Shown: in pieces, positions 6,452 to 9,433 of the stretch
Position numbering within the stretch: position 1 is the stretch's first letter
Layout of the letters: every line of letters begins with the position of its first letter
DNA from: an uncultured Lachnospiraceae bacterium
GTDB taxonomy: Bacteria; Bacillota; Clostridia; Lachnospirales; Lachnospiraceae
Reading direction: 5' to 3'
Length of the DNA: 64,000 nucleotides
Assembly: GCA_947564645.1 (NCBI GenBank)
Contig: CANOCU010000001.1
Coordinates: 81,530 to 145,529, forward strand
Position numbers and translations under genes: made by a program
Notes under the pieces: model-generated
What the model was told of the DNA's origin: nothing
The model's database searches: none
What the model saw: the letters and a program-made list of their open reading frames with translations, nothing else

Positions 6452-7477
6452 TCACTGCTCCGGAACTACAATATACTTTCCTTCCGCCCGCATGGACGGA
6501 TCGGACAGCACCTGCGCAAGCTCTTCAAGCCCGATCGTCCTGCAGACCATGCTCTCCACATCCAGCCGTCCCGAATCGATCAGCTGCAGCGCTCTGTGCT
6601 GGGTATGCGGATTGATGTAAGACGCCCGAAGCGTCAGCTCCTTCTGGAAGATCTGAAAAGGCTTTACCGCGATCTGCGCATCCGGCTTCGTCAAGCCGAA
6701 CATCATCACCGTCCCCTTCTTACCCGCCAGATCGATGGCCTGCTCCATGGTGGCAGGAAGCCCCGCACACTCGATCACGGTACGGATCCAGGTCATGCCC
6801 GCCTGCGCAAGATGCGCCTTCACATCCTCGTGCAGCGGATCGATGCACACGTCGGCGCCCAGCTTCCTGCCCATATCGCGTTTCTTCTCCACCGGCTCTA
6901 ACAGCGCCACCCTGGCCGCGCCCGCCAGCTTCGCCAGCTGCAGCATCAACAGCCCGATCATGCCGCCGCCAATGACCACCACCTGATGTCCCGGTTCGAT
7001 GTCACACATGTCGATGCCGTGCAGACAACAGGCCACCGGCTCCGCCATTGCTCCCTGTGCGAACGAGGTATGATCGCCCAGACGATACACCTGACTCTCA
7101 TCCACCACACAGTACTCCGCAAAGCCGCCGTTCTTCGTCGTCCCGTAGCCTGTCATATGCTCACAGAAGTGTACCTGTCCGTTCCGGCAATAGTCGCAGG
7201 CACCGCAATAACCGTTGGGGTCGATACACACCCTGTCCCCGACCCGGAACCGCTCCACCCTGCCGCCTGTCGCGGCGACGATCCCCGAGAACTCATGCCC
7301 CAGGATCGTGGGCGGATGTACCTCCGCCGCACCCTTGTCTCCCTCGTAGATATGCACATCCGTGCCGCAGATCCCGCAGGCCTTCACCTGGATCAGCACC
7401 TCCCCCGGATCCGGAACAGGCGTATCCCTCTCTTCCACCCGCAGGTCATGTGTTCCGTAAAAAACCGCACTCTTCAT
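6452..7477 (-). CDS. Zinc-dependent medium-chain alcohol/polyol dehydrogenase
   Basis: A 341-residue MDR-superfamily oxidoreductase. Catalytic-zinc residues lie in KACGICGTD (about 32-40) and GHEF (about 61). The structural-zinc cysteines fall in NGYCGACDYCRNGQVHFC (about 88-105). The Rossmann glycine motif VIGGGMIG sits near 167. The closest families are sorbitol/threonine/butanediol dehydrogenases; the substrate is unknown, though a sugar alcohol would suit this region. AGGAGG lies nine bases before the ATG. Its ATG overlaps (ATGA) the stop of a possible 15-codon upstream ORF, and the leader contains an 11-base inverted repeat, so expression may be translationally tuned. Confidence 0.88.
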   Translation of the reverse strand: MKSAVFYGTHDLRVEERDTPVPDPGEVLIQVKACGICGTDVHIYEGDKGAAEVHPPTILGHEFSGIVAATGGRVERFRVGDRVCIDPNGYCGACDYCRNGQVHFCEHMTGYGTTKNGGFAEYCVVDESQVYRLGDHTSFAQGAMAEPVACCLHGIDMCDIEPGHQVVVIGGGMIGLLMLQLAKLAGAARVALLEPVEKKRDMGRKLGADVCIDPLHEDVKAHLAQAGMTWIRTVIECAGLPATMEQAIDLAGKKGTVMMFGLTKPDAQIAVKPFQIFQKELTLRASYINPHTQHRALQLIDSGRLDVESMVCRTIGLEELAQVLSDPSMRAEGKYIVVPEQ

Positions 7478-7646: not shown

Positions 7647-7692
7647 GCGCAGCAAGTGCGCAGAGCTGTTGCCATAGGTGTTCTTTTCATAC
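7647..7692 (-). repeat. Post-stop repeat with hairpin, copy A
   Basis: It begins at the MFS stop codon and runs downstream of it. A 30-base segment (7663-7692) matches 48624-48653 at about 26 of 30 positions, and is followed by the small hairpin GCGCA-loop-TGCGC (7647-7661). Copy B also lies exactly after a stop codon (ilvE). Confidence 0.5.
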
Positions 7693-9000
7693 TTTATCAT
7701 AACGATATTTCTTAAGTACCTGTCCGAATACCAGACAGATCAGTGTGCCGGCAACGCCCAGAAAAAACATCACCATCGCCGCACCCGAACCCTTGCCGGC
7801 GCCAAACATTCGCTTAAGCAGCCCGCCGGGATGCGCCTGCGCCATAAGCGGCTCGCAGACCTTGTCCACAAGCAGCCCGCCTAAGAAGAACCCTACCGGG
7901 ATCGTGAAAAACTGCAGGGTGTTTCTGCAGGAATAGACTCTGCCCTGCATCTCCACCGGAATACTCGCCCGCAGGATCACGTCCAGATTGGCATTCATAA
8001 TGGGCACCGGCAGCCATCCTATCAGCTGTCCCAGACACCACAGCGCCGGAATCCGTGTAAAGGCCAGCAGGAAATTTTCCATACTCAGCGACACTAACAT
8101 GGTCAGATAGATCACCCGCACCCTGTCCTTCGGTCTTTTCATGAAAGTCACCATCAGACTGCCGACTAACATCGCCACCCCGGCCGTGGACGTGACAAGC
8201 CCAAGCGCCATCTCACCGCCCTGGGGTGAAGGCAGAATCAGCGCCGGCAGCACCGCGTCGAAGGCAGACGCCACCAGATTCACCCCCGCCAGAAACAGGA
8301 TCAGGGTAAACACCAGCCCGTTTTCCTTCAGGAAGATAAGACCGCCTCTTGCAGACTGCAGCAACGGTTCCTGCTTCTCCTTCCCGCTGTCCCGGATCTT
8401 CGGGATCCTGATCCCAAACAACAGCGTCACAAAGGCCGCCGCAAACGTTCCCAGATCCACCGCTATGACCACTTCCATGCCAAACAGGGAAAAAAGCGTC
8501 GTCGCCAGTACCGGATTTAAGATCGTGATCAGGGAATTGGAGAAGGACCGCATACCGCTGGTCTTCTGGTAATGCTTCTCCGGCACGATCAGCGTCATCG
8601 CCACATCTCCCGCCGGCTGCTGCAATGTGTTCATCAGCCCGCTTAACACATTTAACAGATACAGATGCCCTGGCATCAGCAGGTCTGCCTTCAACAGCGC
8701 AAATACCGCCACCGTGCTGCAGGCCGCCAGCGCGTCGCAGACAAGCATCACCTTCTTCTTATCCCATCTGTCGCTGAGCGCCCCGGCAAAAATGCTCATC
8801 ATCACATAGGGCGCATAGGTGCAGATCGAGAGTAACGCCGTCTGCAGCGCCGACCCCGTCTTCTCATACAGCCACAGCGTCAGGGCAAAGGCCGTCATAC
8901 TGCTCCCCAGCTGCGACAGCGACTGTGTGCTCCATAAAGCCAGAAATGTCCTTAATTCTTTACAGGTTGTCTTAAAATGTATCTTAATCGATTCTTTCAT
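7687..9000 (-). CDS. MFS drug-efflux-type transporter
   Basis: About 437 residues with roughly 12 hydrophobic segments. The motif SDRWDKKKV near residue 80 matches the MFS A-motif (loop 2-3). The overall pattern (QSLSQLGSSMTAF at the N-terminus, RVYSCRNT near 380) resembles the macrolide-efflux (Mef-like, PF05977/PF07690) branch. It probably exports drugs or other amphiphiles by proton antiport. GTG at 9006 and ATG at 9000 are both in frame. AGGAG is only 4 bases from the GTG but 10 from the ATG, so the ATG is preferred. The leader holds two short ORFs and a hairpin that masks the Shine-Dalgarno, which supports an inducible antibiotic-resistance role. The substrate is unknown. Confidence 0.82.
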   Translation of the reverse strand: MKESIKIHFKTTCKELRTFLALWSTQSLSQLGSSMTAFALTLWLYEKTGSALQTALLSICTYAPYVMMSIFAGALSDRWDKKKVMLVCDALAACSTVAVFALLKADLLMPGHLYLLNVLSGLMNTLQQPAGDVAMTLIVPEKHYQKTSGMRSFSNSLITILNPVLATTLFSLFGMEVVIAVDLGTFAAAFVTLLFGIRIPKIRDSGKEKQEPLLQSARGGLIFLKENGLVFTLILFLAGVNLVASAFDAVLPALILPSPQGGEMALGLVTSTAGVAMLVGSLMVTFMKRPKDRVRVIYLTMLVSLSMENFLLAFTRIPALWCLGQLIGWLPVPIMNANLDVILRASIPVEMQGRVYSCRNTLQFFTIPVGFFLGGLLVDKVCEPLMAQAHPGGLLKRMFGAGKGSGAAMVMFFLGVAGTLICLVFGQVLKKYRYDKV

Positions 9001-9004
9001 TTTC

Positions 9005-9059
9005 ACTTTGCTCCTTTATATTAGTTAACATAACATCTACAAATATTTTCGAGCAAAGT
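9005..9059 (-). promoter_or_regulatory. Hairpin sequestering the MFS ribosome-binding site
   Basis: GAGCAAAGT (9051-9059) and ACTTTGCTC (9005-9013) are perfect 9-base complements. In the transcript the 3' arm contains the GGAG Shine-Dalgarno of the MFS gene, so the folded RNA should block translation. This is the arrangement seen in erm and cat translational attenuators. Confidence 0.6.
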
Positions 9060-9078
9060 CTGAGGACCACGGATGCAG

Positions 9079-9102
9079 TCAGAAGCGCACATCCGAATCC
9101 AT
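9079..9102 (-). CDS. Leader peptide 2 (7 residues) upstream of the MFS gene
   Basis: ATG at 9102 encodes MDSDVRF and then TGA. GGAGG lies four bases upstream (9107-9111). The basic residue next to the end recalls drug-responsive stalling peptides, but the exact sequence is not one I can match. Its ribosome-binding site lies inside the 3' arm of the upstream hairpin (9108-9117 with 9130-9139). Confidence 0.5.
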   Translation of the reverse strand: MDSDVRF

Positions 9103-9107
9103 ATTGC

Positions 9108-9139
9108 CTCCATACAGTGTCCTCATACTCTGCATGGAG
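9108..9139 (-). promoter_or_regulatory. Leader hairpin 1 between the two short ORFs
   Basis: 9130-9139 (transcript CUCCAUGCAG) pairs with 9108-9117 (CUGUAUGGAG) over ten positions including one G-U, with a 12-base loop. The 5' arm lies inside leader ORF 1 and the 3' arm covers the ribosome-binding site of leader ORF 2. Its loop (9119-9125) is also exactly complementary to 9061-9067, giving an alternative fold. Confidence 0.5.
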
Positions 9140-9161
9140 TCTTCACGATCTCTAAAAGCAT
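9123..9161 (-). CDS. Leader peptide 1 (12 residues) upstream of the MFS gene
   Basis: ATG at 9161 encodes MLLEIVKTPCRV and then TGA. The ribosome-binding site AAAAGGAGG (9170-9178), 8 bases upstream, is the best in this region, better than that of the MFS gene. It is only about 20 bases from the predicted transcription start. This is the expected position of an antibiotic-sensing leader ORF. Confidence 0.6.
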   Translation of the reverse strand: MLLEIVKTPCRV

Positions 9162-9190
9162 AGTCCCGTCCTCCTTTTCGTAATACTGTT

Positions 9191-9219
9191 ATTGTACGGA
9201 AATCCATTTTATCTGTCAA
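9191..9219 (-). promoter_or_regulatory. Consensus sigma-A promoter for the MFS leader
   Basis: On the minus strand, TTGACA (9214-9219), a 17-base spacer and TACAAT (9191-9196). The start is predicted near 9184, giving a leader of roughly 180 bases before the MFS start. Confidence 0.75.
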
Positions 9220-9322
9220 TGACATTTAATAGATCCACCGGCTATAAACCCGGAAAGCCGAAAGGTCCTTTCCCATTATTAAAAATGTCTTTAAAAAATA
9301 CATCAGCATGTATAGAAAATAC

Positions 9323-9350
9323 TTACAAGACTATGCTAATGTTGTATGAT
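9323..9350 (+). promoter_or_regulatory. Candidate promoter for the Spo0A-C-like gene
   Basis: TTACAA (9323-9328), a 16-base spacer and TATGAT (9345-9350), about 80 bases before the gene. A small AGCCC-loop-GGGCT hairpin (about 9387-9400) lies between promoter and gene. Confidence 0.4.
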
Positions 9351-9433
9351 AGGATTATACTTTATTTTAAGTTGAATTCTGAAAAGCCCTGACGGGCTCT
9401 TTACACATCGCATGAGATGGGAAAGGAAAGACT

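Follow-up and report, generated by a model that had tools for sequence, protein, structure and literature searches.

The leader of about 180 nt that separates a consensus promoter from an MFS exporter gene, on the minus strand of the window (the whole 64,000-nucleotide stretch of Lachnospiraceae DNA that was analyzed), is best read as a translational attenuator, with a probability of roughly 0.75. Under this reading, the exporter would be silent unless a ribosome stalls at about codon 5 of a short leader open reading frame (ORF 1), in which case the freed end of ORF 1 would capture a second sequence, segment 3. The preliminary description had proposed a leader-peptide translational attenuator ahead of the MFS exporter, and conservation together with covariation strongly supports that proposal; on the comparative sequence evidence, the attenuator reading appears well supported. 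The elements of the leader are as follows.

9191 to 9219, minus strand: promoter-like TTGACA-17-TACAAT, with 11 of 12 consensus matches
9170 to 9175, minus strand: Shine-Dalgarno AGGAGG of leader ORF 1, by direct reading
9123 to 9161, minus strand: leader ORF 1, MLLEIVKTPCRV, 12 codons plus TGA, by direct reading and counterparts in orthologues
9144 to 9155, minus strand: proposed stall segment, ORF 1 codons 3 to 6 (Leu-Glu-Ile-Val), from the ribosome-edge scan and Leu conservation
9130 to 9139, minus strand: 5' arm of stem 1, CTCCATGCAG, inside codons 8 to 11, from covariation
9119 to 9133, minus strand: segment 1', GCAGAGTATGAGGAC, the 3' end of ORF 1 and complement of segment 3, from covariation
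9108 to 9117, minus strand: 3' arm of stem 1, CTGTATGGAG, from covariation
9079 to 9102, minus strand: ORF 2, MDSDVRF, present in the window and not conserved
9053 to 9067, minus strand: segment 3, GTCCTCAGACTTTGC, whose partner is segment 1' or (via CTTTGC) the MFS Shine-Dalgarno region, from pairing and covariation
9051 to 9059, minus strand: anti-Shine-Dalgarno arm, ACTTTGCTC, by direct reading
9005 to 9013, minus strand: GAGCAAAGT, overlapping the MFS Shine-Dalgarno (AAAGGAG, 9017 to 9011), by direct reading
7687 to 9000, minus strand: MFS exporter gene, 437 aa, Mef-like but under the Mef cutoffs, from Pfam and NCBIfam profile matches

On direct reading, every coordinate previously given for the promoter, ORFs, stems, and pairings was correct. 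Stem 1 joins 9139-9130 with 9117-9108 through 10 pairs, one of them G-U, and 9059-9051 forms with 9013-9005 a perfect 9-base stem covering the MFS Shine-Dalgarno. The pairing of 9119-9125 with 9061-9067 that had also been described is present, but its full extent had been missed: the helix between segments 1' and 3 (1':3) runs from 9133-9119 with 9067-9053 and contains, by eye, 13 Watson-Crick pairs, one G-U pair, and one mismatch. The structure exceeds what chance would give: the parts are kept in relatives, and the 205-nt leader had a folding energy of -55 kcal/mol versus -43.3 ± 3.9 in 200 shuffles, 3 standard deviations below the mean and lower than every shuffle. Promoter-like sites numbered 3 in 521 bases versus 2.0 expected by shuffling, with TTGACA-17-TACAAT scoring best. 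A simple consensus scan of 8900 to 9420 found no Rho-independent terminator. The Rfam scan of the window gave no match in the leader, the best E value obtained for the leader was 2.1, far under the gathering score, and Rfam likewise gave no matches among 12 related loci.

These elements suggest how the switch could operate. Without stalling, stem 1 would form and segment 3 would bind the MFS Shine-Dalgarno region, leaving the exporter silent, perhaps with an added pseudoknot between the stem-1 loop and segment 3. The CTCC of ORF 1 could also pair with the complementary Shine-Dalgarno GGAG, as it does in some predicted folds (L121 and L045; L numbers denote individual loci). A ribosome stalled when its P site has reached approximately codon 5 (Ile) would cover CTCC and open stem 1, leaving the last ORF 1 codons (TGC ARR GTY TGA GGAC) free. 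This free end would then capture segment 3, exposing the Shine-Dalgarno and permitting translation of the MFS gene. A ribosome at the stop codon would instead cover segment 1', and the gene would stay off.

A search with the leader DNA found matches in 9 of 61 genomes. In an MFS search of the genus (77 genomes), 58 matched at an E value of ≤1e-60 and 66 of 67 matches were read, and a protein-alignment search of named genomes contributed the best 80 of 528 loci, mainly labelled Lachnospiraceae. The orthologue set drawn from protein searches comprised 108 distinct upstream regions with an MFS identity of at least 50%. The RNA module was present in 102 of these 108 loci, and a counterpart of ORF 1 was recognized in 98 via the peptide motif [ATSP]PC[RKGE]x*; the 98 leaders were selected by [ATSP]PC[RKGE], so the invariance of Pro and Cys among them is by construction. 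Four loci outside the peptide motif (L047, L124, L129, and the truncated L040) were matched by the RNA model R3, three (L109, L144, and L054) came without upstream sequence, and three with upstream sequence (L111, L125, and L048) lacked the module.

Some loci depart from this arrangement. In L003, from a genome of the same genus, 57 bp including the promoter are 84% identical to the query, the leader ORF and MFS gene are absent, and a dehydrogenase gene resembling that at 6452 to 7477 of the window comes next, so the leader and MFS gene may have been lost there as a single unit. At L190, L213, L216, and L274, the leader is followed by a shortened or disrupted MFS gene.

Covariation was measured in leaders picked by the peptide motif and not by pairing, although the motif fixes the bases of the Pro and Cys codons in the 5' arms. 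Alignment A2 omitted 14 of the 98 leaders, mainly because the middle segment was long or an anchor was misplaced, and alignment A3 omitted ten more, a clade with a different loop pairing, so that 74 remained. Across these 74 sequences, 96.5% of 740 cells were paired in stem 1, with two-sided changes at 4 pairs. The 1':3 helix was paired in 95.0% of 1,097 cells, with two-sided changes at 5 pairs (28 cells), versus about 50% at most in slid controls; its weakest measure, further pair types, was equaled in 35 of 500 shuffles. The ten omitted leaders carry GGGCAGT (or a near variant):ACTGCTC in place of TGAGGAC:GTCCTCA at the same position, and L133/L137 have TGAACG with CGTTCA. A more distant set was obtained by filtering 50 loci for GGAG, a matching 6-base complement, and no fewer than 8 of the 9 stem-1 pairs, which left 46 sequences (44 distinct). 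There, stem 1 had two-sided changes at 6 of 9 pairs; the 98.7% pairing in this set is not independent of that selection, and its further pair types were not above shuffles (491 of 500 as high). Thus both stem 1 and the 1':3 helix covary in a leader alignment, the check that the preliminary description had called for, and segment 3 has a mutually exclusive alternative, 1':3 versus 3:Shine-Dalgarno, that is retained with covariation.

The same alignment bears on a second proposal, in which two leader ORFs act in tandem and a stall on either of them opens the MFS site. ORF 2 and its GGAGG (9111 to 9107, 4 bases ahead of the ATG) are present in the window, and L076 and L077 retain the 7-codon MD... 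frame, but these are 88%-identical orthologues, and none of the remaining 95 of 98 leaders has it. An ATG lies 0 to 13 nt from the stem-1 GGAG in 31 of 98 leaders, but the ORFs are heterogeneous. In addition, the GGAGG is accounted for as the stem-1 partner of CTCC, and 2 to 5 bases separate GGAG(G) from ATG in the window, L076, and L077. With a second ORF in only 3 of 98 leaders, tandem use is not supported, and we consider it very improbable. In the single-ORF attenuator favored here, the element freed by the ribosome would be the 3' end of ORF 1, capturing the anti-Shine-Dalgarno strand, and not the ribosome site of ORF 2.

To follow the predicted switch along ORF 1, the 98 leaders were folded with the sequence upstream of a moving ribosome edge removed (positions are counted from codon 8), using fold energies that ignore pseudoknots, cotranscriptional folding, and ribosome geometry. 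This edge scan was undertaken because an earlier after-stall fold from +19, with the Shine-Dalgarno window placed differently, had given no net opening (mean, 0.376 in the full leader and 0.378 after; 12 of 98 leaders up and 12 down). With the edge just ahead of TGC (+6/+7), 1':3 pairing was 0.70/0.69 and the 3:Shine-Dalgarno helix dropped to 0.29; the latter stood at 0.82 at +9 and 0.97 from +13 onward. Mean openness of GGAG was 0.22 in the full leader, 0.14 to 0.19 for edges from -30 to 0, 0.34 at +3, 0.45 at +6, and 0.28 to 0.29 from +9 on (to +18). Shuffling 16 bases of the ORF 1 end (196 shuffles) abolished the effect, giving 0.00 for 1':3 and 0.96 for 3:Shine-Dalgarno. At the level of single leaders, 1':3 exceeded 0.5 at +6 in 71 of 98, and Shine-Dalgarno opening exceeded 0.1 relative to both the full leader and +15 in only 56 of 98. 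The predicted switch of the window's own leader is partial: at the best edge, 1':3 was just 0.39 to 0.41, and GGAG openness went from 0.25 to 0.44 to 0.45.

A ribosome protects about 15 to 16 bases downstream of the P-site start. Assuming this protection, the best edge places Ile5 in the P site, plus or minus one codon, with codon 6 in the A site; a stall at about codon 5 is thus a structural prediction of the folding model.

The N-terminal half of ORF 1 may be conserved at the peptide level. The consensus is M-x-L-[C/M/E/A]-I-A-x-[A/T]-P-C-[R/K]-V, and 74 of 98 leaders were counted as 12 codons, a few of these being one codon longer. Leu is found at codon 3 in 94 of 98 leaders, via six codons, and the synonymous fraction of single-base differences was 0.96 at codon 3 (0.33 expected) and 0.86 at codon 4 (0.14 expected). 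Codons 5, 6, and 7 had no synonymous excess (0.21, 0.28, and 0.18 versus 0.22, 0.33, and 0.22 expected). Codons 11 and 12 had one (0.50 versus 0.20 and 0.79 versus 0.33 expected), which we would ascribe to RNA pairing. Because codons explained by pairing show an excess and codons 5 to 7 show none, the synonymous test alone is no proof of selection on the peptide. Within the 74 leaders counted as 12 codons, Leu3 occurred in 73 and L/I3 combined with I/V5 in 61. Position 3 is not absolute, since ten of eleven 11-codon leaders have Leu at position 2. L-x-I is missing from the MFS leaders of L239 (MRRCSDKAPCRA), L217 (MVSCSVLAPCRV), and L237 (MFRATAEAPCKV), and some MFS leaders have other N termini, such as MRRCLAS, MVSCSVL, and MRRCSDK.

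For the C-terminal (A/T)PC(R/K)V, RNA pairing appears to be the better explanation, given that the frame in which this RNA is read differs at related loci. R or K at codon 11 reflects the fact that its second and third bases are purines opposite UU, with both positions paired in 98 of 98 leaders. Stem 1 is changed on both arms in leaders reading APRRV (L124/L181, L129, and L194) and in leaders reading ALCKV (L250, L251, L260, L269, and L234). On the grounds of the codon-11 pairing and these compensated stems, (A/T)PC(R/K)V was set aside as an arrest motif.

Two further explanations start from residues of the peptide. Phenicols and oxazolidinones stall ribosomes with A, S, or T before the P site, and a stall of this type at Ala/Thr-Pro, ahead of Cys, would agree with the presence of A, T, or S at residue 8 in 97 of 98 leaders (though the selection motif permitted only A, T, S, or P) and with the CatA-like and Cfr-family genes that carry the module. 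We regard such a stall as unlikely, however. Stem-1 pairing constrains the CT of codon 8 and thereby already restricts the residue to A, T, S, or P; a ribosome at this site would cover segment 1', where folding favors the closed Shine-Dalgarno helix; and related leaders instead have ALCKV, APRRV, or a different frame. An attenuator responding to cysteine or arginine starvation could draw on Cys at codon 4 (61 of 98 leaders) and at codon 10 (98 of 98, as the selection motif requires), but it is hardly credible given that 37 of 98 leaders have no Cys at codon 4, that L124/L181, L129, and L194 carry Arg in place of Cys10 together with a compensated stem, and that the downstream genes resemble exporters and modifying enzymes.

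For the attenuator with a stall near codon 5, we infer from the peptide and the downstream gene that the stall, at a codon close to the predicted one, responds to a ribosome-targeting antibiotic, most likely a macrolide in the MFS branch, and that the MFS protein exports this ligand. Macrolide is a tentative first guess, held at well below even odds, because the predicted nascent chain is M-x-Leu-x-Ile, because Leu or Ile at position 3 is reported as critical in erythromycin pentapeptides, and because the exporter is Mef-like. In the portion of PMC10314930 available, Leu3 of MsrDL adjoins erythromycin, and Leu or Ile at position 3 of the erythromycin-resistance pentapeptides is described as critical. 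Against a macrolide stand the ten 11-codon leaders with Leu at position 2 and the same RNA before CatA-like genes. The MFS protein matches MFS_1/MFS_3 in Pfam, and its best NCBIfam matches, H+ antiporter 2A0121 (176.5 versus a cutoff of 319.6) and Mef(A), did not reach their cutoffs; NCBIfam Mef cutoffs were missed by a wide margin (MefA, 121.6 bits versus 675).

The module extends beyond these orthologues. Model R2 matched 56 of 397 family genomes (E ≤ 0.01) and 37 of 392 order genomes (E ≤ 0.02). Model R3, for which 53 of 57 anchored sequences were used, non-MFS R2 matches among them, matched 26 of 391 class genomes and 8 of 398 phylum genomes (E ≤ 0.001) and had one single site in the window's own genome. 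These samples overlap, and stem 1 or 1':3 was part of the models by which the loci were picked. By reading, the module lies mostly ahead of MFS genes, including 51 of 59 family loci read (some with truncated genes), 13 of 22 new order loci, and 19 of 26 class loci. Among MFS paralogues with 35 to 42% identity, 8 of 21 loci had the module (R3, E ≤ 0.1), six of the eight having CTCTGTRC:GTRCAGAG stems and, in most cases, a leader resembling VIDL. MFS loci on two plasmid records, L269 (Monoglobus) and L270 (Subdoligranulum), carry the module (E values of 1.8e-8 and 2.9e-10), and L237 has the module and a related MFS gene on one contig of a viral collection (IMGVR_UViG_3300023713_000092, putatively viral).

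Genes of other classes also follow the module. In L245, a Cfr-family 23S rRNA methyltransferase (436 to 1467) passed three NCBIfam Cfr cutoffs and is preceded by a leader ending in ..THNRLHAKSDVLGDICME, and the Cfr-family locus L247 is similar by eye; at the four plasmid loci read for cfr (L267), cfr(B) (L266), and cfr(C) (L264 and L265), there was no module match. CatA-like acetyltransferases follow the module in L208 (211 bits) and L258 (210 bits, versus a CatA cutoff of 270) and, by eye, in L259 and L261; three of these four leaders read MKRGLD[A/N]APC[K/E]A and one reads MKFCIAVFPCKA. A plasmid CatA-like locus (L268) gave only a match at E 0.43, distant from the gene. Small proteins resembling the CD3324 family follow the module in L204, L210, L214, L227, L236, L257, L263, L271, L272, and L273, with the L214 protein passing NCBIfam and the others assigned by similarity; in L214, a Vat-like acetyltransferase below the cutoff comes after the CD3324 gene. 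Further examples are a SpoU-type rRNA methylase in L229, with a leader ending in ..GKLHAKSER, an esterase in L184, and a protein of 430 to 438 residues in L221, L222, L223, L225, and L226, whose leader MRLTI[AV]xxPCKV retains L-x-I; the first 250 residues of one such protein had no Pfam match. At the CD3324, Cfr, and SpoU loci, the likely leader, judged by eye, is mostly in the LHAK frame and SMQS in L204, with the RNA constant and the peptide different. In L275, a module-like match precedes a gene whose product contains ISGSPWVGKTT, a P-loop-like motif; L205 has a module match with no assigned gene, and L211, L212, and L276 appear to be chance matches.

RNA helices better conserved than the peptide, and a reading frame that differs among gene classes, could also point to a riboswitch, an RNA that binds a ligand itself and for which the peptide would be incidental. 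We find this highly doubtful, as the MFS branch keeps the ORF start, its Shine-Dalgarno, and the six-codon Leu, and the loops vary freely provided that pairing holds. A modular extension of the attenuator strikes us as about evenly balanced between right and wrong: a transferable Bacillota RNA switch with the core CTCCATGCARRG ... TGCATGGAG ... complement of the ORF 1 end ... CTTTGC ... GGAG, in which N-terminal sensor peptides may be swapped and frames differ (..APCKV, ..LHAK, and, at one locus, ..SMQS), such that different ribosome-targeting drugs would induce MFS, Cfr-family, SpoU, CatA-like, and CD3324 genes (one with a Vat-like gene).

If the attenuator reading holds, Clostridia would share a widespread family of switches that control resistance-type genes inducibly. 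Sensing seems to reside in a few N-terminal residues and switching in a conserved RNA, so that a drug rule could be proposed for each peptide from comparative data. The reading also predicts induced exporters and Cfr-family methyltransferases in commensals, which would be possible reservoirs of such genes.

The leader probably represents a new family of translational attenuators of a known general type; no description of it was found among the open-licence PubMed Central papers listed by the searches. As in erm- and cat-type systems, there is a leader ORF with its own ribosome site and a helix over the target Shine-Dalgarno. Translational attenuators of the erm type with stalled leader peptides are described in general terms in the part of PMC4335068 available, and they share with this leader a short ORF, mutually exclusive helices, a hidden Shine-Dalgarno, and, as predicted here, a decision made by ribosome position; here, the leader ORF's own 3' end would capture the anti-Shine-Dalgarno, and the leader peptide is different. 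The mef(E)/mel system of streptococci, as outlined in the same excerpt (PMC4335068), also has a leader peptide ahead of a Mef-type MFS exporter, but Mef(E)L is MTASMRLR and acts by transcriptional attenuation through a Rho-independent terminator, whereas no terminator was found here and neither ORF 1 of the window nor the orthologue leaders have a peptide of the MTASMRLR type. MsrDL (MYLIFM) is likewise a short hydrophobic leader with Leu3, but in the available text of PMC10314930 its stall is at the stop codon, its mechanism is terminator based, and its target is an ABC-F gene. For ermB, two leader peptides, ermBL and ermBL2, were already reported in the section available from PMC8274638, with the second ORF needed, unlike the second ORF here, which is not conserved. 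In cplR of C. difficile, the accessible part of PMC10201436 describes a clostridial translational attenuation that, as proposed here, frees a Shine-Dalgarno, but with a 3-residue uORF (MRI), an ABC-F gene, and an additional terminator.
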